Part shown: positions 19,969 through 62,327 of the stretch, piece by piece | Layout: every line of letters begins with the position of its first letter | Numbering within the stretch: position 1 is the first letter of the stretch | Origin: Phorcus lineatus | Taxonomy: Eukaryota > Mollusca > Gastropoda > Trochida > Trochidae | NCBI GenBank assembly: GCA_921293015.1 | Contig: OV121087.1 | Coordinates: 36,129,235 to 36,193,234 of the forward strand | DNA length: 64,000 bases | Reading direction: 5' to 3' | Translations under genes and position numbers: made by a program | Notes under the pieces: model-generated | The model's input: the letters and a program-made list of their open reading frames with translations, nothing else | Database searches by the model: none | Told to the model about the DNA's origin: nothing

Positions 19969-20425
19969 AGAGTCACTCCGTTGTTGGAGTCATATATGCC
20001 AAACTTAATCAATGGTGTCATTTGATCGCAAAGTATCGACCGTTACTAAAAAAGACACATTTTAAAGCGTATTGTTTTTTACAGTGACAATACGAAGGTA
20101 GAACGTTGCAATTTATGATCGAAAACCGGACAGCGCGTCAAATAGTCAAACGTAATTTTGGAGACTTATCTAAAACATCCAGGAGGGCAGTTAGGAGTTC
20201 ATAGTGTTTATTAGGTTATATAACAAGTATCAATGTATGTTGGACGTGATATCTACACCTCTGTGCATATATAAGGCTGCTTTTAGATTTTCATGGAAAA
20301 ACAGTATTTGTCATTTAATATTTGGACATGAAAAGTTAAGATGTTTTGAATTTATATCACCACATATGACATTGAGGTTCGTATCAAAGGTGAATAATAT
20401 GTTATGAAAATCACGGAGTGCATCT
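19969..20425 (-). mobile_element. TTAA MITE, family 1 copy 1
   Basis: The 457-base element is flanked by TTAA at 19965-19968 and 20426-20429. Its ends are agagtcactccg and, reverse complemented, agatgcactccgtga, an imperfect inverted repeat of the family consensus AGAGCCACTCCGTGA. The interior carries the family landmarks gatcgaaaaccggacag, gtcaaacgtaattttg and ccaggagggcagttagga. It has no open frame and depends on another element for movement. Confidence 0.92.
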
Positions 20426-20429
20426 TTAA

Positions 20430-22200
20430 CCGACAACAATGGCAGCGTAGTCAGCAGACAAATCACGTTGACAAAAACCGGTCAATGTCAAGAATGAATC
20501 ACCTTTTAAAATAGTTGACTTGTTGTATAATGTGCGGGGAACTTCTACAAGTTCTTTTGGGATTTTAGGAAGTAGACACTGTGGATGGTGGATTAATACT
20601 TTATATTTACAGATGAAATGCTGAATTTCGGAAAGAAAACACCATCGGTGACTTGGCCACATTGCGTATATCTACTCAAAACGATTCTCGAACACAAGGA
20701 GAAAAATTTGTAAACATATATAAATATCAATTTTAATGAGAGGGTTTCGACACTTGGAAAGCATATTCACAGGCCTTAAAAGCATGTATTTAAGAAGATG
20801 CAATTAAACATTAAACCAGAATGGGTCCCTTATAAACTTTTATTATCTTTATTAGCGTCGCCATAAAATGTCTAATGTTAGTTAAGAGAATGTCACCGCC
20901 TTATGTTATCTTATAACAATTCAGATTGAATGCACTGACAAATTTACAATAATCATAACTGTTAATTGTTAAAAGATGAAACAAGTCATGCTGTTATTCT
21001 TCATAAGGTTTACACAAATAAACTTTATAAATATGGGGTTGATATTGGTGTAACACTTGATACTGAGGGATGCATGAGTGGTTCTCGGAAGAGTAATGGT
21101 TAAATTACACAAAACGAGTAAGGGTTAATTTGTGCAACGACCCCACATGCATGCTCTGTCATTTCAACTTCCTTTTGGAAGTTATAGAATTACAAAACCA
21201 ATAATATTTAAGATAAATTTAATCTCAGCATGCTAACAAAGTTAATGTTTGCATGGTATAAGTGCATGTATGTGTCAACGCATTTTTAAAAAAAAAACGC
21301 TTTTATTTTATTTCCCCTGGATAATTCCTTGTTACATTGCATCAAAGCATTAAGATGTCATTATATTATATTATTATGTTCATTATGCTTAGGTTCTAGG
21401 TCATGGATTTCCAACACATATACAATCTTACCAGGGGTTTCATGACAAATGCATCGCCACGTGAAATAAAAGAGCTGACTCAGCATTTTCTTCTTAGAGT
21501 ATCTCAGAAACATTTCTTTGAATATTTAAGGGCAACAAACACTTCAAAGCTTTCAGCGTTGGTATAAAAACTGTCATTCAAATCTTGCTTTTGAAATTAT
21601 CTCATGTTGAGAGGGATCCATTTTAATAATCAAGTTCTGACTGCATGCAGTTTCTTGAGTGCCATGGTTGATTTCCTGCATTTATCTGTTGTATGATATA
21701 CATAAATCTCATTTTATACCATTATTAATATTTTTTTCATAAACTGCAACTGTGTATAACCGCTTTCGTTCAAGTTAACCTCTTTCATTATCTCATTCAT
21801 AAGTACCTTGAATATGAAATTTAGATGTAGTGAGAATCCATTTTAGAATAGCCCAGGCAGCCTTACAAAGAGACATTGTTATTGAAATTGAAATATCTAG
21901 AAAACTTAAACTCAGCAATAAATCTTATAGGGCGAATAGAACTTTTTCAGGTTACAAATATATCCCGAGCTATGAGATGTTGGACCCTCATATGAGGATA
22001 AATTTACTATGAAATAGGCATAGCCGAACAATGAAACATGAGTTAAGATTCTTTGATTGGCATTCTTGAAATGTGCATGATGAAGAATAAAGACTCTTTC
22101 CATTTCAACTTCCTTATTCTGAAAAGGCCATGTTTCAGGACACAAGGTATACAATCTAAGCAATATGAATGAAGTGTCAGCATAAACTGATATGAAGCCT
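20430..22200. other. no gene or element recognised
   Basis: AT-rich sequence with only short frames (20426-20662 minus, 21830-22225 on both strands) that have no recognisable motifs, splice context or codon pattern. Confidence 0.5.
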
Positions 22201-22203
22201 TAA

Positions 22204-22670
22204 AGAGCCACTCCGTGATTTTCATAACATATTTTATACCTTTGATACGAACCTAAATGTCGTATGTGGTGATATAAAATCAAAACATCTTAACTTTCAT
22301 GTCCAAAAGACATATCTATGACAAATACTGGTTTTCCATGAAACTCTAAAAACAGCCTTATAAATGCACAGATGTGTAAATTTCACGTCCAATATACATG
22401 AATACTAGTTAAATATAACCTATCAAACACTATGAACTCCTAACTGCCCTCCTGGCTGTTTTAGATAAGTCTCCAAAATTACGTTTGACTTTTTGACGCT
22501 CGCCACTGTCCGGTTTTCGATCGTAATTGCGACGTTCTACCTTCATATTGTCTCTGTAAGAAAAAACAATTAGCTTTAAAATGTAAACTCTAACAGTCGA
22601 TACTTCACGATCAAATGACACCATTGATTAAGTTTGCCATAATGACTTCAACAACTCACGGAGTGGCTCT
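22204..22670 (+). mobile_element. TTAA MITE, family 1 copy 2
   Basis: The 467-base copy has both TTAA flanks (22200-22203 and 22671-22674), the start agagccactccgtga and the matching inverted end tcacggagtggctct. It is a good reference copy: ends, core and internal landmarks are all present. There is no protein-coding frame. Confidence 0.95.
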
Positions 22671-34515: not shown

Positions 34516-35155
34516 CAGGTTCAGAAACTAGATTCACTGCACTGACGATGGAAGCTAAGATAAGCCTACTGTTCCCCGTGTTTCTGTTATACCCTGTATT
34601 CAAATTTAGAAACTATGTTCACTGCACTGACGATGCAAGCTGAAGATACGCCAACTGTTCCCCATGTTTTTTTATAGTCCTTATGCTCGAATTCAGAAAT
34701 TAGATTCACTGCACTGAAGATGGAAGCATAAGATAAGGCAAATGTTCCCCTTGTTTTTATGATCATAATGTTCGAATTAAGAAAGTACATTCCCTGCACT
34801 GTCGGTGCAAGTTTAAGATAAGCAAACGCTCCTCTTGTTTCTGTTATACGCTGTTTCCAAATTCAAAAACTAGATTCACTGCACTGACGATGCAAGCTTT
34901 AGATAAACCAACTGTTCCCCTTATTTATATATTAATAATGTTCGAATTCAAAAAAGAACATTCACTGCAATGTCAGTGCAAGCTTTCGATAAGCCAACTG
35001 TTCCCCTTGTTTTTATATTCATAATGTTCGTATTCATTGACGTACATTCACTGCAATGTCGGTGGAAGTTTAAGATAAGCCAACGCTCCCCGTGTTTCTG
35101 TTATACGCTGTATTCTTATTTAAAAGCTTGATTCTCTGCACTGTTGGTGCAGCTA
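34516..35155. repeat. ~85-bp minisatellite, about eight units
   Basis: The unit core ttcactgcactgacgatgc recurs near 34533, 34618, 34705, 34792, 34875, 34960, 35047 and 35131. Between cores lie aagataagccaactgttcccc and tgtttctgttata words. Two unit subtypes alternate in the array. The paralogous place in the other copy (41735-41830) has about one unit, so the array expanded on this side, or contracted on the other, after duplication. The minus-strand frame at 34587-34799 is repeat-driven. Confidence 0.9.
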
Positions 35156-35517
35156 AATTTAGACCTTGTTTATGTCTTTTTTCTGTTATCTGTTGTGCTT
35201 TTATATAAGCATTTACTGCACTGTACCATATAGGGTTACTGCCTTGTTATTTAACAGGTGTGTGTAGGTAGGAGAGTTCAAAAGTTGTGACTCAGAGTTA
35301 CGTAATTGAGGGCAAAAGTTGAATGAAATGTTCATACATGAGACATATGTGTATTAAAAATTATTACTTAATCATAGTGTTTATAAATATCTATCTTTAC
35401 TATTCTCACAAAAGAAAATATGTCAATGTTCTCGTGCATTGTCTTTACACGTAGAAAGAAATGTACTGTCGATTGACTTATACAAGGTGTCTGTGTATAT
35501 AGTAGGCATAAGGTATC

Positions 35518-36100
35518 TTTAAGTGCATTTACATCAGTTATTATTGTTTTGCAAGAATATTGGAATTTAAGTGTCTCGTGAAACTATTTGTGGCATAGAT
35601 GAATTTAAAGTTGACCTTGACGATCATATTCTATTTTGTAGGGCATAGTGTTTTGGGCATGCATATCACCTATTACTTGTATACTTTTTTAAACCTATTC
35701 TGAGAGAAATAGGTCGACTGCCCTCTTTTCTGACCTTCACGTCGTAAATGTATGATAGGTGCACAGTAAAAGGATAAGCTTGTTATGTAATGGTGTACAT
35801 TTCTGTATCTTTAAGTGCATACCAATTATTGTTGTTTAAAATTTGAAAGTATATATTGGAATTTAAGTGTCTCGTGTAACTATTAAATTTCGTGAATTTA
35901 AAGTTGACCTTCACGATCATATTCTATTGTGTAGTGCATAGTGGTTTAGGCATGCATATCACCCATTACTTGTATACTTTTTTTAACCTATTCAGAGAGA
36001 AATAGGTCGACTGCCCCCTTTTCTGACCTTCACGTCGTAAACGTATGATAGGTGCACAGTCAATGGATAACCTTGTCATGGAACGGTGTACATTTCTGCA
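35518..36100. repeat. ~293-bp tandem pair
   Basis: Two adjacent units share gaatttaaagttgacctt (35601 and 35894), aggcatgcatatcacc-type and gagaaataggtcgactgcc words. The paralogous region at 47110-47310 has one unit. Confidence 0.9.
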
Positions 36101-36883
36101 CTCCTACTGTACTCTTTTTATACCTTTAAATGATAAGTTTTTATCTAGTTTATTTCTTCAAAATTTCCCCAAAAAATCATTTTATGCCATCTTCAGAGGG
36201 TCAAACATCTTTTTACACAACCCGGTCATCTCTAGTCGTAAAAGAAATTGTCCAGTATCACGCAAAAAGTTCTTGCGGCCATTTTTGTGGAGGGACATCT
36301 TGATCTTGTATGTTCGTTTTAGAACTGCTTCTTTTGATTAAAACATAATCATGAAATTGGTAACATTAGGTTTCGTTTACTGAGAGATCACTTTGTCTGT
36401 CTTAAAACGTGCTAATGTTCCTTACACAAGTTTGAAACTGTTTGAACAGACCTGGATCCGCCATATTATACGTCAATTGTTAGCAATTCTTATTGTCGCA
36501 TGTATGTTTATCAAACATTTCGACTATACTTGTTTTAAACTCCGTCAAAATGAATAAGCTTCGTGCAAATGACTTTGGCCTTGTTTATGGAGACATGACC
36601 TGAGTAAAAGTTTTATAACACGGAAGGTCATTGTCAATGCTACTATAGCTAAAAAAGCCACTGTTCTGAGTACGCCTGAGCGTGTTACCCTTAATGCCCC
36701 CTTCCCCGCCCCACATAAAGCTGATTTAGCCCAATGCAGAAAATACTTATGTCAGAACATACATATATCTGAGCGTAATGATTATATTTTGCTTCAAGAT
36801 AACAATTACAATCAAGCATTTTGGTTGCGAATATTGATAAAAGTTGTGGTAACAGTTTATGAGATTGTTTTAAAAAATGAAAG

Positions 36884-42779: not shown

Positions 42780-42974
42780 TTAAGGTATACTTGAATGTAA
42801 GTGTCTCGTTAAAGGGAATAGGAAATATGACCTATTTTGAAGATTAAAAATATTATTTGAAGTGCAAAGAGACTAATGAAGCAAACAGATAATTTTTAAC
42901 CGAACGGAATATTTAGTAATTGGCTGCTGAACTTGATCACCTATGAAAACGTAAACAAACTTTGACCTCTGACC

Positions 42975-43000
42975 TAATGACATCACGGAGGGAACACGTT
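42975..43000 (+). promoter_or_regulatory. promoter-like block in left end, CRE-type site
   Basis: The sequence tgacatcacggagggaac lies about 60 bases before the THAP start codon. The right end of the same element has tgacgtcatgaagggaac in the opposite orientation, about 15 bases before the start codon of the ballast gene. TGACGTCA is the classic CREB/ATF site; that it drives transcription here is inferred from position only. Confidence 0.5.
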
Positions 43001-43061
43001 ACGTCGACCCGCCATATCGTTACACAGCGCCGAATAGAAGCCGGGAACAGAGGAGTCGGAA

Positions 43062-44057
43062 ATGCCTCTTATTTGTGTGGTAGGGGGCTGTAGACTGTAG
43101 TCAAACCACACAAGAGAACTTAATGCTTCATATTTTGCCACGGATATCGATATCGCAAAACGATGGACGAAAATTGTGCAAAGAACCCGAGCCGACTGGA
43201 AATCAGCACCCAGTACGGTAGGCCTAGATCTAGTAGTCAAGTATACAGCTACATTTGTTCAGCACATTTCAACGACGGTTCCCTCATCCAACCTAATTAT
43301 GTAGCTACAACGGAAGGATCGAAACCTAAAATGATGCCGGATGCATGTCTCGCGGTCTTCCCAAAAAATGTATGCCACAAGAAACTGTTCGCGCAACTGC
43401 GAAAGTACAAAAAATGGGCGAACAGGCGTTCAAGTCGAAGTGACCTAGCTCTCGTCGGTTCGGAAGAGGGAATTTTAAAGGGTGAGCGTTGATCATGTTT
43501 AATACAGTAAACAATATATGTCTGTAATTCTGTATGTAATCATCAGCAACATTTATTACGAAAAGCATAACCTTAAAGAATGTCAGCTAACATGACAGTT
43601 TTAACGTGCTCTTGATTAAATATTGTCCTGTTTTCGATCATTTGAAATTCAAGGAGAATTATTTCACACATATTCGAAATTTTTTTAATTCACATTGTTT
43701 TACATGACAGGATGGAACAGTAAATATGGTAAATTAAATAACATTTGTGAATTTACAATTAGGCTATTATAACATTTTGAAATTGGAACTGTAAAAAGTA
43801 AGCTTTAGTCTTATTGAATATATATAACCCGTCCCATTATTTATGACTGACCAAACGAGATAGAATATCATATGCTACGATGGCCTGTATGATATGGATA
43901 CTTTGAGAGTCAATACTATGTCTGTGTGTCCTTTTTCAGTGGATTTAATGTTGAAAACATTAAAATTTAATTTCCTTATTTTTGTAGTCTTAACCTGTAC
44001 TTATTCCCTGTTCCTTTATTTTTTCCAGATGCTACACACAAGAGGAAATCATCCTGA
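43062..44057 (+). pseudogene. THAP-type zinc-finger gene, decayed
   Basis: Starting at 43062 the frame reads MPLICVVGGC, the C-x4-C start of a THAP (C2CH) DNA-binding domain. After an in-frame stop at codon 13 the same frame gives IAKRWTKIVQRTRADWKSAP, the tryptophan-bearing middle. The second half of the finger, ICSAHF (C-x2-H), followed by the THAP end motif CLAVFP (AVPTIF in other members), is in another frame from about 43230. Between the halves lie about 32 extra bases bounded by tac words, so the gene has at least two breaks or a tiny intron. A donor g|gtgagc at 43481/43482 and an acceptor ttccag|at at 44028/44029 join in phase and end after KDATHKRKSS. THAP proteins bind DNA; here it would probably recognise the element's own ends. 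This is the 5' gene of the TTAA element. Confidence 0.7.
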
Positions 44058-44987
44058 TGTCAGGGTACTTCCAAACAAAAAAGTTTTTGATGATTGATGA
44101 GGGAAATACAGCAGTCCCCAGTATTATGGATGGTGCCTTTTTAAAACATCAACCAAGCAGATGGAAGCCAAGCAAAGGACAAAAATATTCAAGTTCAATA
44201 ATCTTGAAGCAAAGAGAGTAAAGGTTTGTGAAATACAACAGTGATGGAAAAATTACTCTAATTATGATATTAATTGTCTAAGTACCTAGTAAAAAGTGTC
44301 ATATTGAGATATTAACATAAATATCTAAGTTTTCAAAGAATGTACACATTAGATGAAAGATAAAAGTGAATACCTTTTATTTAGGATTTTTTATTTGTTA
44401 ATGATTTTGTATTGTGTGAAAATCACTAAAATAATTATTTACATTGTCAATTCCTCATGATGAATTTCATTTTGTTTTGCAGGTGTTTCTACTCCCAACA
44501 ATTGATTCCTGATGAGATACAGAGCCAATTGATTTGTGGGGGAAAATGTAACCGTGCAGTAACAAAATTGCCTACTATTTTCAAGCCTAGGCAAAATAGA
44601 GTTATTTAGTTGTTTTACAGAATCTCATTACAAGATTTTGATACATTTGGAGGGGGAAAATGTTGCAATGGATTTTTTCTCAAAAAAAAAGGAATAACAA
44701 TTTATCACCTTTTCATAGACTTTTGTCACTATTTGTTAGAACATTGAACTCATGGCACTAAATTCTTCATCTGTCTTCTAAATGATTGGCATGTAATTTG
44801 AATACACACAGAGAATGAACAAGAAAATTTTATGAGTTCAGAATCATTTATTAGTTAGGCAGTTTGTTTATAACAAGTTTGACCACTTGAAGTTATTGTA
44901 TAGTTTATAAACTATATAGTTTATTTGAAATTTGAACTTATGTTTTCAAGAAATAAATAATTCATGTCAGATTTATCTTCATTTTTA
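44058..44987. other. spacer between the two convergent genes
   Basis: Two weak splice-like sites occur (gag|gtttgtg-type near 44224 and ttgcag|gtgt at 44480/44481), so extra 3' exons of the THAP gene are possible, but no domain was recognised in either frame. If a transposase once lay here it is gone. Confidence 0.4.
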
Positions 44988-46891
44988 TCACTTTGACTTG
45001 CTATCTGGTTGTTTATTTGAGTCATCAGTTTGGTATTGCTGCCTGAACTGGTAAAATGCTGTGTCTAGCACATCAGTGTTCGGGCAAACAGCAAAAAACT
45101 GGGGTGGAGGATGAGGCAGCAGACAGGTGGGTCCTCAACACTGAACGTGTACCTGTACTTGTCTACCTCCTGACAACACCAGCTCTCTTTGGCTGTGGGC
45201 ATCATATAACAATGGTTACAGTCCCTCCTGAAGAAAAGAATTTGATTATGTGAAGTGATATAAAAGTTTATCCATTCATAAATGATGAGTGGAGATTTGA
45301 GAAAAGTTAAACATTCATATGCTCTCACTTTCGTGTCATGTATTTTCGTAGTATTAAGAAATCTACTGCTGTGCACTTCTTAAACATCACAAGTTGATTA
45401 TGATAAAACATACTTCAAACATTTTAAACTAAACAAACAATTATTCTTTATATTTAAATATTATTCGAAGAGATGCCAACTTTTACAAATTATTTTGGCG
45501 TCACTTTTTTTAATTGTATTTGTCTTGGGTCAAATAATGACAATACAACCAATGAGACAAGGTAATCTTTTACTGATTTTCAAACACAATTTTTTTTTTT
45601 TTTTTTTTTTTTTTTATTGTTCCCAAGTCATATATACAAGTAAAGTTGTAAGCGATACATAAAGATTCCACATATTTTCAAACACAAATGGTGACTTAAG
45701 AATATCATTTAAACTAAACTTGTTACATGTTTAAAACGTTCACAAGCTCAATTATGACATTGATATAAATATTTCAGGAAAAGTAAGTGTGCACTGTTGT
45801 AGATATAAAATTCTTCTTAACAGATTAATATCTTCTATATGAAATAACACCAATTTCTATGAATACGTTCAAAGCAAAATTTTAAATGTTAAAAAGATGC
45901 ATCATTTATTTTTCACTGAAAAATTCTACAAATGCCCAAATGTAGATTAGCAATAACCCTTTCAGCATTTGCACAGATTTAAGAATAGATCAGGGTTTAT
46001 TCTCTGGTTATACCTGAGAATAAGAATCATGCCAGCATTGGGAAGAAACCATTAAGATACTTTGATGACGTATATATTTCGATCAAACTACTGATAAAAA
46101 AATGTTCTAGAAGTGTATCAAGTGAAAAGCATGAAATAGCACTTGATTTTCATTAGTGACATCTGCAGTTGGATAGATTTATTGAAAATTGATCGTGTTC
46201 ATGCAAAACAACTGATCAACAAAATAAGTGCTATCTAGCTGGGACCAGTTTATGTCAAGGGTCGTTGTCTTATGTAAATACCACGAAAACAGGTGACGCA
46301 TTTAAATAATTTACTTGCTTTCTATTTTAAATAACTTTGAATGAGAGTAATTTATTTCGAAATATATATAGATGCAAACATGTTAAACAAGATCAACTAC
46401 ATGTATAATTAAAATCTAGGATAGATAATCCTACAACTGACAGAATAATCAAGAAAGGAACCGAATTATATGGTCCTTCATACGATCAATGGCCAAGGGA
46501 AATAACTCTAATTAACAATATATTATTATTTTCAAGTTATGTTTTTATGTTAAGTCATCTGCTTAACATATATTTTGATTAAGTCCCTTTTCACATTAAA
46601 TGTTAATACAGCATTGACCTAAAATGACAAGCCTTTCATTCCTATGTAATAACTTTAATTAGGCCTACCTTGCACGCAGCTGTTCAATCGGTCATGGTCG
46701 TCAGAGCCATTGCCGTCAGAACTTGAGGAGGAATCCCTCACTGGCTCGAATCGGATTGTGCGGTTCGGTCGGACTTGTCGGCAATAAAATTTAGTCCTAT
46801 CCGACTCATCTCAATTGTCAGATGAGTCGAAAGGCCACGGGGAGCCATCACTGTGGACACTGAGTTGGTACTCAATACGTGTTGACGCCAT
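44988..46891 (-). pseudogene. P2X7 ballast-domain-like gene, two exons, decayed
   Basis: Exon 1 (46891 down to 46668) starts ATG-GCG-TCA and encodes an acidic, serine-rich N-terminus with the motif RFEPV and a run of five serines. Exon 2 (45227 down to 44988) encodes CNHCYMMPTAKESWCCQE, then V-C-C and HPSF, then NTDVLDTAFYQFRQQYQ and a stop after DSKSK. These are the cysteine clusters of the P2X7 intracellular 'ballast' domain (zinc- and GDP-binding in mammalian P2X7), also found alone in many invertebrate proteins. The donor caag|gtaggc and acceptor ttcttcag|gag join in phase across an intron of 1440 bases. There is one in-frame stop in exon 1 and one frame change in exon 2 between HPSF and NTDVL. 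The second half of the domain (the IPSC...IR..FP...G.Y.GF part) was not found. The predicted length is about 154 residues. Confidence 0.72.
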
Positions 46892-46894
46892 ATT

Positions 46895-46930
46895 TACGTT
46901 CCCTTCATGACGTCACATTATCACGTGACA
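46895..46930 (-). promoter_or_regulatory. promoter-like block in right end, CRE and E-box
   Basis: On the minus strand tcacgtgataatgtgacgtc and then atgaagggaacgtaaat precede the ATG at 46891. The palindromes CACGTG and TGACGTCA are intact. The word TGACRTCAYGRAGGGAAC is shared with the left end in inverted orientation. Confidence 0.5.
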
Positions 46931-48024
46931 TAAAACTTGTCTTTTTACTAGGTCAGTCGATTTCAGCTACTTTACTTAGCTTGTATCTTTTAAATGCATG
47001 GTCCCAAAATTTTTGTTTTCAATGGAATTTAATATCATTACGTTTATAAGTAAGGTGTTACATGTGGAAAGTGTAATTTCAACATGATTTCCTAAACCCT
47101 TTAAAAGATTTGCAGCATCTGACCATCAAAGATGAAGTAAAAGTCGACCTTTATGTTAATATGCTATTTTGTTGATTTTAATGACATGACTTTAACCACC
47201 TATAACTTGTGTACTTTGTTAACCTGAGAGAAATAGGTCGAGTGCCCCATTTTCTGACCTACACGTCATAAACGTCTGACATGTGTACAAGAAAGGGACC
47301 ACCTTGTCAGTTAACTGTTCACAAGTCTACACTGCCACTGCACTCCTTTTGATTCGTTATATTTTGAATTTCATTTCCTCAAAATTTCGTATAATCTTCA
47401 GAGGATCTGACATAAGTTTACTTAACATCATCCGTAGTCCTAAAGGAAATTATCAAATATCAGGTTATAACTACTTTCGGCCTTTTTTGTGTGAACACCT
47501 GTTATTTATTTGCGGAGATGGATTCGGAGAACGTAACAGCTTCTTTCGATTAAAACATTATCTTGCAACTGGTAAAATTGGTTTTCGTTTCTCTTTGTTT
47601 ATCTAAAAAACATGCTTCTCTCCCTTAAACAATTTTGAAACTCTCTGAACAGACCTTGATCCGCCAATACGTTAATTTGGTGTTAGCAATTCTCCTTGAA
47701 CAGTGTGAAAATGAAAGTTTATAAAACATTTTGAGGAAATTCTTATGAATTCCGATTACGAATAAGCTACGTAAAGATGACATTGACCTTGTTTATAGGG
47801 AGATTACCAATGTGACTATTACATAAAGGCACCATTACGTGTACGCCGAAGCGTATAACCGTTAATCTTTCTCCCACTTAAAACTGATCAAGCCAACCGC
47901 TATATTATACTTATGTCAGAACATATATATGATTATATTTTCTTTCAAGGCAGCACATGCAATCAACAATTTCGGCTGCAAACGTTGATAATATTGTGAA
48001 ATATTTTAGAAAATTAAAACGTTT

Positions 48025-49516: not shown

Positions 49517-50279
49517 TGCTAATAATATTTGGATATTAATATGGCCCTTTTTCCACGAACTGGTACATGCTCAAAGCGCTACCTGAAATCACCCTGAAGG
49601 AAGTGTACTTTTAAAGAGCAACTCCGTGATTTTCATAACGTATTATTTACCTTTAATACGAACCTAAATGTCATATGTGGTGATATAAAATCAAAACATT
49701 TTAACTTTTCATGTCCAAAAGACATATATATGACAAATAATGGTTTATAATGAAAATCTAAAAACAGCCTAAAAATGCACAGAGGTGGAGATATCACGTC
49801 CAATATACATGGATACTAGTTATATAACCGAACAAACACTTATCAACTCCTAACTGCCCTCCTGGCTGTTTTAGATAAGTCTGCAAAATTACGTTTGACT
49901 ATTTGACGCGCGCCACTCTCCGGTTTTCGATCACAATTTCGACGTTCTACCTTCATATTGTCACTGTAAAAAAAAACAATTAGTTTTAAAATGTGTCTTT
50001 TTTTAAACAGTCGATACTTCGCGATCAAATGACACCACTGTTATGACTCCAACGACTCACGGAGTGGCTCTTTAAAGCAGCTACTTAGCGATAAGTGCGA
50101 TCATATAGACCCATATATTTTCAACACCTAGGTGGATTGGGTGCAATGTGGAAGAAATGCCTTATCTAAGGACACAACAGCATATTTGACAAAGGTCATA
50201 ATAGTTTGCTGTCTTATGCGGGATTTGAACCTAGCGTGAGAGGACAGCAAGCTAACCACTATACTAACTGCGTGCCACG
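49517..50279 (-). mobile_element. SINE family B, split by a MITE
   Basis: The left part (49517-49610) and right part (50076-50279) form one SINE interrupted by the 49615-50071 MITE. The head on the minus strand has tatagtggttagcttgctg (box A) and taggttcaaatcccgc (box B), better kept than in the 38757 copy. The joined order matches the unbroken paralogue there. Confidence 0.85.
49615..50071 (+). mobile_element. TTAA MITE, family 1 copy 3, nested in a SINE
   Basis: TTAA flanks at 49611-49614 and 50072-50075. Removing the insert and one TTAA leaves gtacttttaaagcagctac, which matches gtacattcaaagcagctac in the unbroken paralogue at 38870. This shows directly that the target and its duplication are TTAA. 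The ends are agagcaactccgtga and tcacggagtggctct. Confidence 0.96.
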
Positions 50280-51955: not shown

Positions 51956-52127
51956 CATATATATTGACTATGTATAGTATAGATAATATAAAAATAAAAC
52001 AATAGGAACTAATTCGAGCGTGGGAACTGTGAACAAGGGTGGCAGTTACCCTACCATGTTTTTCAAATTACTTATATCATTTGTTCTATAGTGTGTACAT
52101 AGATTGTAACCCGATATAAAACGTTAA

Positions 52128-52597
52128 AGAGCCACATCGTGATTTTCATAACATATTATTTACCTTTGATACGAACCTAAATGTTATATGTGGTGATATA
52201 AAATAAAAACATTTTAACTGCTCATGTCCAAAAGACATATATATGACAAATCCTGGTTTTCCATGAAAATCTATAAACAGTCTTATAAATGCACAGAGGT
52301 GTAGATATCACGTCCAATTTACATGGATACTAGTTATATAACCTAACAAACACTATCAACTCCTTACTGCCCTCCTGACTGTTTTGGTAAGTCTCCAAAA
52401 TTACGTTTGACTATTTGACGCGCGCCACTGTCCGGTTTTCGATCATAATTGCGACGTTCTACCTTCATATTGTCACTGTAAAAAAACCAATAAGCTTTAA
52501 AATGGGTCTATTTTGGTAACAGTCGATACCTCGCGATCAAATGATACCACTGATTAAGTTTGACATATATGACTCAAACAACTCACGGAGTGGCTCT
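52128..52597 (+). mobile_element. TTAA MITE, family 1 copy 4
   Basis: TTAA at 52124-52127 and TCAA at 52598-52601, one flank having mutated. Ends agagccacatcgtga and tcacggagtggctct. It is 470 bases long and close to the consensus throughout. Confidence 0.94.
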
Positions 52598-52694
52598 TCA
52601 ATTTGATTTATTTTAATGGCTTTAAATGAGATGGATGAACAGTTTCCTTATTTCATGAGTGCAACACCTAGTTGGAGATGCTAAAACCGTTTAA

Positions 52695-54110: not shown

Positions 54111-54607
54111 AGAAGTCAGCACTGCACTAACCAATGGGGTTGTAGTTGACGATGACGTCGTCGTGTCAATGACATCATAATTATTGCATTGTGATATCAT
54201 TATAATTGTGATGTCATGTCCTAGACGATGTCAGAGCATTGTCCAAAGTCTACTGTCAATATTTCCCAGGAGATATTGCTTGATCCCCCTCAACCGTTAA
54301 TCTGATTATTCTCAGGTGTATCACCGGTTTGAATGATAACTATTGAGTTGCACTGTGTTTCCTACTTCTCTCTTCCTACAAAGTCTTTATAAGCGTTTCT
54401 GTTCATTAAGCTTGTTTCAAAGAGTAATTAAAGAAATTGCGGACTCAGTCCCGTTATAATACATCTTAATAGAAACCATCGAGTGAGGTAAAAAAAGGTA
54501 AATATTTTACGAGTGGCGCAGCCATGGGAGAAGATTACCTTTTCAATCTCTCGAGATGAGACAAACATGTCACTTATTCAAGCAAATACGTATATTCTAT
54601 CTATTAA

Positions 54608-55059
54608 AGAGCCACTCCGTGATTTTCATACTGACATATCATTTACCTTTGATACGAACCTAGATGATATATGTGGTGATATAAAATCAAAACATCTTAA
54701 CTTTTCTTGTCAAAAAGACATATATATGACAAATACTGGTTTTCCATGAAAATCTGAAAACAGCCTTATAAATGCACAGAGTTGTAGATATAACGTCCAA
54801 TATACATGGGTACTAGTTATACATGTATAACCTAACAAGCGCTATCAACTCCTAGTTGTCCTCCTGGCTGTTTTAGGTAAGTCTCCAAAATTACGTTTAA
54901 CTATTAAACGCGCGTCACTGTCCGGTTTTCGATCAAAATTACGATGTTCTACCTTCATAGTGTCACTAGCTTTAAAATGTGTCTTTCTGATAACAGTCGC
55001 TACTTCGCGATCAAATGAAACCATTGATTAAGTTTTGCAACAACTCATGGAGTGGCTCT
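54608..55059 (+). mobile_element. TTAA MITE, family 1 copy 5
   Basis: TTAA at 54604-54607 and ATAA at 55060-55063. Ends agagccactccgtga and tcatggagtggctct. At 452 bases it is the second shortest copy and more diverged than copies 2-4. Confidence 0.93.
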
Positions 55060-55138
55060 ATAATCATACCAATAAAGTTTAATAGATTTTGAATATCAGT
55101 GTTTAATTATCCTTAACTGTGATACCGTGCCATACATA

Positions 55139-58580: not shown

Positions 58581-59200
58581 TTTGACGATTCTTGGAAAAC
58601 TGTCAGCTGTTTGTTGAAAAAGCGTGGGTTGTTACAAAAATAGAATGATGACTCCGATTCTTGAATGCCAAATAATGGATCAAACTTGAAAAAATGTTGC
58701 CTCTTTTTTGTGTGACATTATTTACAAATGAGAATTTACACTTTTATCAACGTATATGAAAGAAAATATAATTCTTCTCTCAATATGACATTTGTAGGGA
58801 AATCAAATTCCACATTAAAGCATGCCAAATATTTTGTGGTACCCACAAGGTCACATGGTTAATATTTTGTTACATCTCTTTTCATTGGTCATTGGATACG
58901 CCATGATACAAATAGAACACCTAGCATTGGCTAAAACCTCTCTCTGAAAATTTCCAACTGTATTATAGAGTGAAATATCGGCAATGAGTGTCATTTATCA
59001 AATGTATAATTACTTGGCGGCTTTGGCCGCCAAGCAATAAAGCCGAAACTACTTCTTGTTAAAAACTATTTTAACTAAAATAACACAAAAGATTTAATGT
59101 CTTTAGTTTGGTATGTTTATTTTTTAATTTGGCATAATATCTTTATGGAATATATGTTATATTTTTATGTTATCATGTAGGATTTTCAAATGTAGATTAA

Positions 59201-59647
59201 AGAGCCACTCCGTGAGTTGTTGGAGTCAGATATGCCAAACCTAATCAATGATGTCACTTGATCGTGAAGTGTCCACTGTTACCATAAAGACACATTTAAA
59301 AGCTCATAATTATTGTTTTTTTACAGTGACAATATGAATTAAGGTAGAACGTCGCAATTATGATAAAAAAACGGACAATGATGCGGGTCAAAATTGATAG
59401 TCAAACGTAATTTTTTAGACTTATCTAAAACAGCCAGGAGGGCAGTTAGGAGTTGATAGAATTTGTTAGGTTATATAACTAGTATCCATGTGTATTGGAC
59501 ATGATATCTACACCTCTGTGCATTTATAAGGATGGTTTTAGGTTTTTGTGGAAAACTATTATTTGTCATATATATGTCTTTTGGACATGAAAAGTTAAAT
59601 TCGTATCAAAGGTAAATCATATGTTATGAAAATCACGGAGTGGCTCT
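59201..59647 (-). mobile_element. TTAA MITE, family 1 copy 6
   Basis: TTAA flanks at 59197-59200 and 59648-59651 are both perfect. Starts agagccactccgtgag and ends tcacggagtggctct. It is 447 bases long with a deletion near 59600 relative to the other copies, and sits in the intron of the pogo-type gene. Confidence 0.95.
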
Positions 59648-60899
59648 TTAATAAATTTATCACAAGAACAAATGAACTTGCTTCAATTGCATACATATAT
59701 ATATTTATATGGAATTTAGGTAAAAGTAATTTTCATGCAATCATTTGTCATGAGAGGTTTCATTTCATCCTACATTTATTTTTGCTGTTTTCATCATGAA
59801 AATAGTTAGAATACCATCCAATAAACAGGGCTACTGATAATTATTTGGACTCAGGGGTATTGCAGTCCTTAAAATAAAATTTGAGGAGTAAACTTTCCAC
59901 AGGAAAAAAACTAGGAGTATTTCAAGGTTTATTGTTTTGAAATTCACATCCTCATTCCAAGTTAGCATCTTTTTCGATTTTAGTCATTGATTATATTTTC
60001 CACATGATTAATCTGTAAATAAACGAATGATTTCTCTTTGGCAATCTCTTTGATAATCTTTGTTTTCATACAGTTTGGCATCAAGTTAGCTATTGTTCGA
60101 AATGTAAAGATCAGACATGTAGAAATAAAACTTTATTTTGACAAGTGAAGATCACTCCTGTAAACAAATATCTGACTCGTATGCTTGGAAGGTTGTGCAT
60201 ATCTGTCACTCATTGATTTAATTTTTAATTTGTATATATATGATTTACCATATTTTACATAGATACGCATCTTATCTGGAGCCCTGCATAAACACATTGG
60301 CCTTTCATGCCTTAGGAGCTATATAAATGACCATGCTAGGTTAATAAATGAAAATAAACCAAATGTCTGAAAGAAATGCAATATATGGCTACATGATATG
60401 TTTCAAGTTATTAATGCTCCTGTAATCAAATTTTGATTTTTAATACAACAGAATCTGGTAAAATAAGGATACCATTCAACAAAGTATCAACAAAGATATA
60501 CAATTATGAAGAGGTTTCTGTTTGAGTTGAAATAAATGAAATTGTATCAATGGTCAGAGATGCCACTTCATGAAACCTGTGAATGAAAAGCCATAGAAAG
60601 TCAATATATTCTGGAAAGACTTCAATGCCAAGGAGGAAAAAAAATTTTTAATGTGTTGGTCCTTGGAATCATTGAAGGAGCTTAACTGGTTACAACCCTG
60701 TAAAATATTTCTGTCTCCTACCTCTGGACAAAAAGAATTCTAAAATCTTGTTTTTACCAAAAAAACTTTCTGATGATAGGAAAATTTGTCATAGGTTTTG
60801 GATCGATTTATAAAATATCAAAAATTCTTGACAAGCTACAGAGCTTTTTGTCTGCAATATAAGTCTTGTTAAGATAACAAAACGATTCATTCATTTTAG

Positions 60900-62327
60900 G
60901 TTATCCCCGTAAAGGCAAGACCATCATATCGCAAGTACAGCGTCGAGTCACTGACAGAAGCTTACATAGCTGTAAAAGAAGGAAACATGCCTGTAGCAAA
61001 AGCATCCCGGATTTACAAAGTCCCAATGCAGACACTTCGTGACCGAGTACTGGGCAAAATCAGCATTGATACAGTCACAACTGGCAGGGCACCTGCTATG
61101 AATCTAGAAGAGGAGGAAAAGTTAGTATCCCGTTTCCAGCAACTTGCCGATATTGGATATGGATATGCCAGATCAGAAGTTGTTAATATCGGAAATGACT
61201 ATGCAATTCAGTTAGGAAGACGTTCAAAAGATAATCCATTGACTGTCAGTTGGTATGTTCAATTCACAAAGCGTTGGCCAGAAATCGAGATTTTTAAGAA
61301 AAGCTCAGTTGAATTCAAAAGAGACATCCGAAAGTCCTCAGAAGCTGTGAACAGTTACTTTGAACAGTTAAAGGACATATTCAGCAAATACCATCTGCAT
61401 GATAAACCTCATTTAATCTTCAATGTTGACGAAAAAGATCTCTGTCATAATCAAACAGCGGCTGGCTATAAACGTCAGAAGGTTTTGCCTGGACTAAAAG
61501 GTAAGACAAAAACCATTATTGGTTGTGGAAGTGCAAGTGGTATGTTGATACCTCCTTTCTTTGTATTTGAAGGGAAGAAACTTACCCATGGGCTCATGAA
61601 AGGATCAACAACGGGGGCAAAAGGTGTTATGTCTGACAATGGTTTGTCAAATGCAAACATCTTCAGAGAATACCTAAAAGAACATTTCATCAAGTTTGTT
61701 CCCGAGCGGGATCCTGACCAACAGCTTCTTCTCCTCCTCGATGGCCACACGTCTCACATCAGCCCTGACCTCACTGAATGGGCAAACAGCAACAACATCA
61801 TCTTGTTCTTTCTACCAGCACACACCTCCGATGTGCTCCAGCCCTTGGATGCTGAGTGTTATGGTCCTTTTGACCGGATGTTTCATGATAAGTGTCAAAC
61901 TCTCAAAAGGAAATCCTCAACTCCTGACAGGAGACTTAATATATGTCAACTATCTTGTCAAGTCTATGAAAAGGCTTTGTCAAAGGAAAACCTTCGAAGT
62001 GCGTTCAAGAAAACAGGTGTGTATCCACTTGACAAATCTGTTGTTAGCTTGGTAGTTGAAACACCAGCTGAAGAGTCAAGTGTGGAAAAGGAAGTTGGTG
62101 GTCCTGTGATCTTTTCAGCTGCTGAAATTCCTGAGCAAGAACCTGAGATGTCTCCCACAACGGAAGAGTTGACTTCAAAACTTGAAACAAAAGTTGGCCA
62201 GAGGGGAGAGTCTGAGAACAAACGCAAGAAGAAGAAACCAAATCGGAAGGTTGTCCGCAAGAAACAAATAACAAAGAAGGATGATCCAGAGAAGGTACGT
62301 GAGCTAAAGAAAGACAATACTAAGTAA
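60900..62327 (+). CDS. pogo/Tigger-type transposase-like protein, main exon
   Basis: The frame is open from the acceptor at 60899 to the TAA at 62325 (475 codons before the stop; 446 residues from the first internal ATG at 60987). Domains in order, numbered from that ATG: a pipsqueak-type helix-turn-helix up to about 25 (its first part lies upstream: KYSVESLTEAYIAVKEGN), a CENP-B/Tc5-type DNA-binding part at about 30-105 (ending WYVQFTKRWPEIEIF), then a DDE_1 domain at about 110-310. The three catalytic acidic residues are present: D148 in FNVDEKDL, D252 in LLLDGHTSH and D288 in LQPLDAE, with 35 residues between the last two. A lysine-rich tail follows (about 410-446), probably nuclear targeting. 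Members of the Tc1/mariner pogo branch cut and paste DNA at TA sites; many have become host DNA-binding proteins. No TA-flanked inverted repeats were seen near it, and a spliced first exon is likely, so it may be a domesticated or multi-exon gene. No stop or frameshift is visible. Confidence 0.85.
   Translation, partial: VIPVKARPSYRKYSVESLTEAYIAVKEGNMPVAKASRIYKVPMQTLRDRVLGKISIDTVTTGRAPAMNLEEEEKLVSRFQQLADIGYGYARSEVVNIGNDYAIQLGRRSKDNPLTVSWYVQFTKRWPEIEIFKKSSVEFKRDIRKSSEAVNSYFEQLKDIFSKYHLHDKPHLIFNVDEKDLCHNQTAAGYKRQKVLPGLKGKTKTIIGCGSASGMLIPPFFVFEGKKLTHGLMKGSTTGAKGVMSDNGLSNANIFREYLKEHFIKFVPERDPDQQLLLLLDGHTSHISPDLTEWANSNNIILFFLPAHTSDVLQPLDAECYGPFDRMFHDKCQTLKRKSSTPDRRLNICQLSCQVYEKALSKENLRSAFKKTGVYPLDKSVVSLVVETPAEESSVEKEVGGPVIFSAAEIPEQEPEMSPTTEELTSKLETKVGQRGESENKRKKKKPNRKVVRKKQITKKDDPEKVRELKKDNTK

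Follow-up and report, generated by a model that had tools for sequence, protein, structure and literature searches.

What kind of element carries, between two TTAA sites, a broken THAP exon on one strand and part of the ballast domain of the P2X7 receptor on the other? The question is raised by a 64,000-nucleotide stretch of the Phorcus lineatus genome (assembly GCA_921293015.1, contig OV121087.1, positions 36,129,235 to 36,193,234), hereafter the window, in which positions 42813..47100 form a 4,288-bp element that starts with AGGG, ends with CCCT and has TTAA on both sides. Comparison with the host genome (957.8 Mb searched) indicates that this is very probably a Kolobok DNA transposon, a candidate for the Kol0 type, in a copy that an internal deletion has left non-autonomous. 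The element is multicopy and has its ends in common with a larger element that carries a THAP exon, candidate DDE transposase exons and a three-exon KolX gene. According to Kojima & Bao 2022 (PMC9587614), KolX is an accessory protein encoded by Kolobok elements of the Kol0 type; it has the fold of the P2X7 cytoplasmic ballast, and P2X7 originated when a P2X4-like gene fused to KolX.

Ends, target site and copies in the host genome

A preliminary description of this DNA had proposed a TTAA-flanked element with imperfect AGGG inverted repeats, and its boundaries prove exact to the base. The terminal repeats, AGGGAATAGGAAAT (from 42813) and AGGGTTTAGGAAAT (reversed, from 47100), are identical at 12 of 14 positions. 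This level is reached by 10 of the 56,755 TTAA pairs lying 0.5–10 kb apart in the window (a count that left out pairs with a very A+T-rich left 14-mer), and the other nine pairs are members of a different repeat family; among the 20 AGG...CCT pairs listed, the runner-up to the element reaches 8/14. Past the first 20 bases, the likeness of the two ends is marginal (score 244 vs 252 at the 99% point of random window pairs).

The genome DNA search with the element, in which the best 40 of 355 candidates were scored, returned at least 121 matching pieces, including a complete copy on C2 that is 99% identical to the window element. Both ends were found in 28 of 32 fetched copies, picked from the DNA matches as mostly near-complete-looking loci and not a random sample; the other four were without one end in the stretch cut. 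TTAA is present on both sides of 27 of the 28 two-ended copies, the remaining one having ATAA/TTAA, and the termini are AG...CT in these copies and in the window. The flanks differ among the fetched copies, save for the common right flank of L028 and L037, which lie about 19 kb apart on C2 and may represent one insertion that was duplicated. No relatives were detected in viral contigs (protein scan and DNA pattern) or in genome_contigs (DNA pattern).

The empty paralogous site that had been placed at about 35855-35900 holds up in part. The right flank of the element matches 35893-36490 (69%, E 5e-57), and the likeness of the left flank is confined to the 20–30 bp or so adjoining the insertion; the site is thus supported, yet would be a diverged one. 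The 120 bases of the left flank score 188, where 300 random stretches average 119; three of these beat it (240, 550 and 600) and may overlap the flank itself. Direct repeats occur at 34520-35151 (offset about 85 bp) and, at the diverged empty site, at 35513-36098 (offset about 290 bp).

The larger relative and the internal deletion

Within the element, the THAP gene on the plus strand and the KolX gene on the minus strand face each other. The plus-strand THAP finger of the preliminary description is borne out, although in a broken gene, as the exon contains one in-frame stop and one frameshift. The longest piece that is open stays at 17.6 bits, under the Pfam cut-off of 23.9 bits; read with X across the stop and the frameshift, the exon scores 35.4 bits (E 1.9e-8), above the cut-off.

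An unbroken counterpart is provided by a relative on C11 (21508210-21519892; 11,683 bp), which has TTAA at both ends and the terminal bases of the window family, and in which both ends, the THAP exon and KolX exons 1 and 2 align to the window (71-85%). The THAP-side end of this relative resembles the KolX-side end of the window element (95% over 21 nt). For its THAP domain the score is 48.8 bits (E 1.3e-12). Behind the THAP exon come an insertion that matches zf-RVT weakly (E 0.011, short of the cut-off) and a repeat of part of that exon. Extra DNA interrupts the THAP exon of L022 (by about 2.7 kb) and of L063 (C11) at nearly one position (element ~563-571); the L022 insert gave no match when compared with the C11 element.

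Minus-strand frames of the C11 relative contain VTDRHVSIRK, DVWHVAK (a DxxH motif) and TSHLEAYH, with DVWH positioned between candidate D and E residues, and the VTDRH, DVWH and HLEAYH frames are candidates for the DDE core. Its KolX gene has three exons. Exon 1 ends in NNTSW and its in-phase join to exon 2 gives WCECNHC (vs WCQCGSC in P2X7), and exon 3, RRYRHISYRQVVRWCYGWLGRDVRRVIPSC...FPSPTEEYEGFKYK, which is the same in a relative on C7, carries the C-terminal half of the ballast domain. Against the Pfam family P2RX7_C (gathering cut-off 23.5 bits), the score of exon 3 is 43.1 bits for C11, with 43.1 and 44.4 bits for C7.

Compared with C11, the window copy is without about 6 kb that hold the candidate DDE exons and KolX exon 3. 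Among the genome matches listed, nine other rows and the C2 copy cross this deletion zone in one piece (query 1-2777), which indicates that the family spread after the deletion. We propose that the full element would encode a THAP-DDE transposase and accessory KolX, a putative helper of transposition, on opposite strands, each running inwards from one end; that the deletion of about 6 kb would have taken out the DDE exons and KolX exon 3, with point damage breaking the remainder; and that, since the derivative retained its ends, it would have been moved in trans by the transposase of a relative, by cut-and-paste at TTAA.

KolX exons, the half ballast domain and a second ballast family

The minus-strand ballast gene of the preliminary description is present in part. 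The cysteine motifs CNHCYMMPT...CCQE...HPSF and VLDTAFYQFRQQY are found in the window, spread over two frames, and KolX exon 2 contains one frameshift; the complete domain is absent from this copy, which has the N-terminal half only. The exon 2 frame runs open to a stop at 44988, and its open part probably extends into sequence that is intronic in the larger relative. KolX exon 1, which the preliminary description did not include, carries one in-frame stop. The G+C content is 46-51% in the three exon islands (THAP and KolX exons 1 and 2; 49% in exon 2), compared with 28-29% in the introns, and 32-40% in the end regions. In KolX intron 1, a short stretch led by a T run is spanned, among the genome DNA matches listed, by the window and the C2 copy alone.

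A tblastn search of the window with an animal-type ballast probe gives 39.7 bits at exon 2, compared with at most 24.3 bits in 20 shuffled windows, and no match to the C-terminal half of the domain within the element. The P2X7 sequence has no tblastn match at the element, and a PDB search with the window KolX yielded no match. Direct BLASTP of the window KolX against P2X7 is not significant (E 6.6), so the link between the two rests on the relatives. Against P2RX7_C, the whole probe scores 49.8 bits and its N-terminal half alone 10.3 bits, and C11 exon 2 alone scores 11.8 bits (model positions 82-133), below the cut-off; the model therefore hardly sees the N-terminal half.

Queried with exon 2, the genome gives 84 matches. 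Of 33 copies examined, seven have a fixed exon 2 pattern open and 26, the window included, fail it; the seven are an undercount because L015 fails the pattern though its frame is open. The best open copies are 85-96% like the window query. The THAP pattern used is open in 0 of the 33 copies but is open in the C11 relative.

A search of the host genome with the P2RX7_C family, from which the best 150 of 228 candidates are listed, has no row inside the window and reveals a second ballast family: 73 of the 150 rows have an identical score of 120.6 bits and a 192-codon open frame. Two of its members on C12, L061 and L065, have aligned blocks of 476, 1849 and 2338 bp that are 99.8-100% identical, and their differing left flanks meet the element at TTAA, past which the first bases are AC, not RR. 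They combine a ballast frame (121.2 bits) with an opposite-strand frame containing GDGRNDSPGHTAQY that matches the Mutator-like transposase family PF20700 just under the cut-off (E 2e-5). BLASTP between the transposase pieces of the two ballast families is not significant (E 13). This second family has apparently amplified recently.

Other repeats are present in the window. Six copies of about 455-480 bp (19969-20429, 22200-22670, 49611-50071, 52123-52601, 54604-55069 and 59197-59651) have inverted ends of their own, AGAGCCACTCCGTGA...TCACGGAGTGGCTCT, with TTAA at both ends in four and at one end in two. The repeat resembles solo long terminal direct repeats of KolobokP or a Kolobok miniature inverted-repeat transposable element (MITE). 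The C2 copy of the main element starts right after the end of sequence of this type. At 60900-62327 there is an open 475-codon transposase frame whose domains (DDE_1, 65.7 bits; HTH_psq, 22.6 bits) make it pogo/Tigger-like.

Table 1. Features of the element and its target site (window positions)
Feature	Position	Strand	Basis
TTAA target-site duplication, left	42809..42812		Sequence; TTAA in fetched copies
Left terminal inverted repeat, AGGGAATAGGAAAT..	42813..42828	+	End comparison; fetched copies
Candidate subterminal inverted repeat, left arm	42978..42995	+	83% of 18 to 46898-46915
THAP exon of Kolobok transposase gene, broken	43062..43482	+	Pfam PF05485 with X; unbroken C11 counterpart
Further 5' part of transposase gene region	43837..44495	+	71-76% alignment to C11 relative
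Internal-deletion junction zone	44495..44684		About 6 kb of C11 relative without counterpart
KolX exon 2, N-terminal half of ballast domain	44988..45227 (about)	-	Motifs; copies; C11 alignment
Stretch of about 85 bp led by T run, KolX intron 1	45589..45674		Break at query ~2777/2862 in other rows
KolX exon 1 (MASTRIEYQL..., acidic/serine-rich)	46673..46893	-	Open in L012, L022 and C11 relative
Candidate subterminal inverted repeat, right arm	46898..46915	-	Just upstream of KolX exon 1
Right terminal inverted repeat, ..CCCT	47085..47100	-	End comparison; fetched copies
TTAA target-site duplication, right	47101..47104		Sequence; fetched copies

Weighing the Kolobok assignment

Several observations count against assigning the element to Kolobok with KolX. 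The window copy shows no trace of DDE, either by a six-frame scan (0 families) or by alignment to C11; the scan is a weak test of DDE, as it overlooked THAP as well, and the absence is concluded from the alignment, in which DDE has no counterpart. Four C11 minus-strand frames were tested and all stay below the Pfam cut-offs (MULE, E 0.011; Mutator, E 0.23), and an unrelated Pfam family scores E 0.0039 on the same frame. A clear in-phase donor was not found for the window KolX exon 1. Lastly, P2RX7_C matched no window piece tried, a failure on exon 2 that the preliminary description had named beforehand as refuting. The relatives explain this result: those with the same ends hold the missing half, which scores over the cut-off, and the failure on the window copy is for that reason not taken to refute homology.

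The assignment to Kolobok, first made from TTAA and THAP together, agrees with the TTAA flanks of the two-ended copies and with the presence of both genes in the C11 relative. The full-length TTAA relatives with the same ends and both genes that the preliminary description had named as support were found in the host genome, with candidate DDE exons that fall below Pfam cut-offs.

An alternative is that the derivative was retained since its truncated KolX, the N-terminal zinc half, still acts, for example as a repressor or helper of relatives. The open exon 2 copies and their likeness to the window query speak for such a function; however, the pattern fails in 26 copies, the window among them, and youth alone can explain open frames, making retention for function unlikely. 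There is a correspondingly slim chance that a transposase-less Kolobok family with open truncated KolX in some copies has spread half of the ballast fold, perhaps for use apart from its transposase. If so, the truncated-KolX family would be a natural halfway step to capture by host genes such as P2X7.

A piggyBac origin is less probable still. TTAA duplications are present, and piggyBac families of such a kind are described in Kojima & Bao 2022 (PMC9587614). However, the AG...CT termini are of the Kolobok 5'-RR/YY-3' type, which that article contrasts with piggyBac; a THAP domain is found in the window and in C11; the cysteines of the N-terminal half are retained, whereas the piggyBac versions described there are without most of the seven; and the same-end C11 relative largely supplies a THAP-type, not a piggyBac, transposase. 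That the element is a TTAA MITE with two unrelated captured host gene fragments is scarcely credible, for although the window copy alone consists of gene fragments with no DDE, the larger same-end relative carries both genes in matching positions, with additional exons, and the genome matches of KolX exon 2 are numerous (84, as above).

The Kolobok element described here resembles Kol0 with KolX (PMC9587614) in its TTAA duplications, RR...YY termini and combination of a transposase with a ballast-like KolX, and differs in that the window copy is deleted, without DDE and with half of the ballast domain. That Kolobok transposases carry THAP is described in a separate article (PMC6004289), and the word THAP is absent (0 times) from the main text of PMC9587614. 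The Xenopus XKol elements and T2-MITEs of PMC6004289 are alike in TTAA, AG-initial inverted repeats and a THAP-bearing transposase, and in having short derivatives thought to be mobilised by larger ones; they belong to another animal and have another sequence, and KolX occurs 0 times in the main text of that article. The ballast domain across animals was described by Rump et al. 2020 (PMC7016195), in whose text 'transpos' has 0 occurrences. The P2X7 ballast domain and nanor treated there are likewise zinc-cysteine domains, and C11-type KolX exons score on P2RX7_C; in that work, however, the domain is a receptor tail or a separate gene.

By term search, Kojima & Bao 2022 is the only article found to pair KolX with Kolobok or Kolobok with ballast, and P2X7 is paired with Kolobok there and in a review (PMC9319628). 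The suggestion in the preliminary description that a transposon-borne ballast domain was the source of the P2X7 tail thus matches the 2022 article and had already been published; a Kolobok-borne ballast domain as the origin of that tail is, on the account given there, known in kind. What this analysis adds is the deletion-derivative family and, within one genome with it, the second ballast family. Near-identical copies offer a place to test the role of KolX in transposition, and the findings from this one animal genome independently support the carriage of the P2X7 tail domain by TTAA transposons that the 2022 article described.

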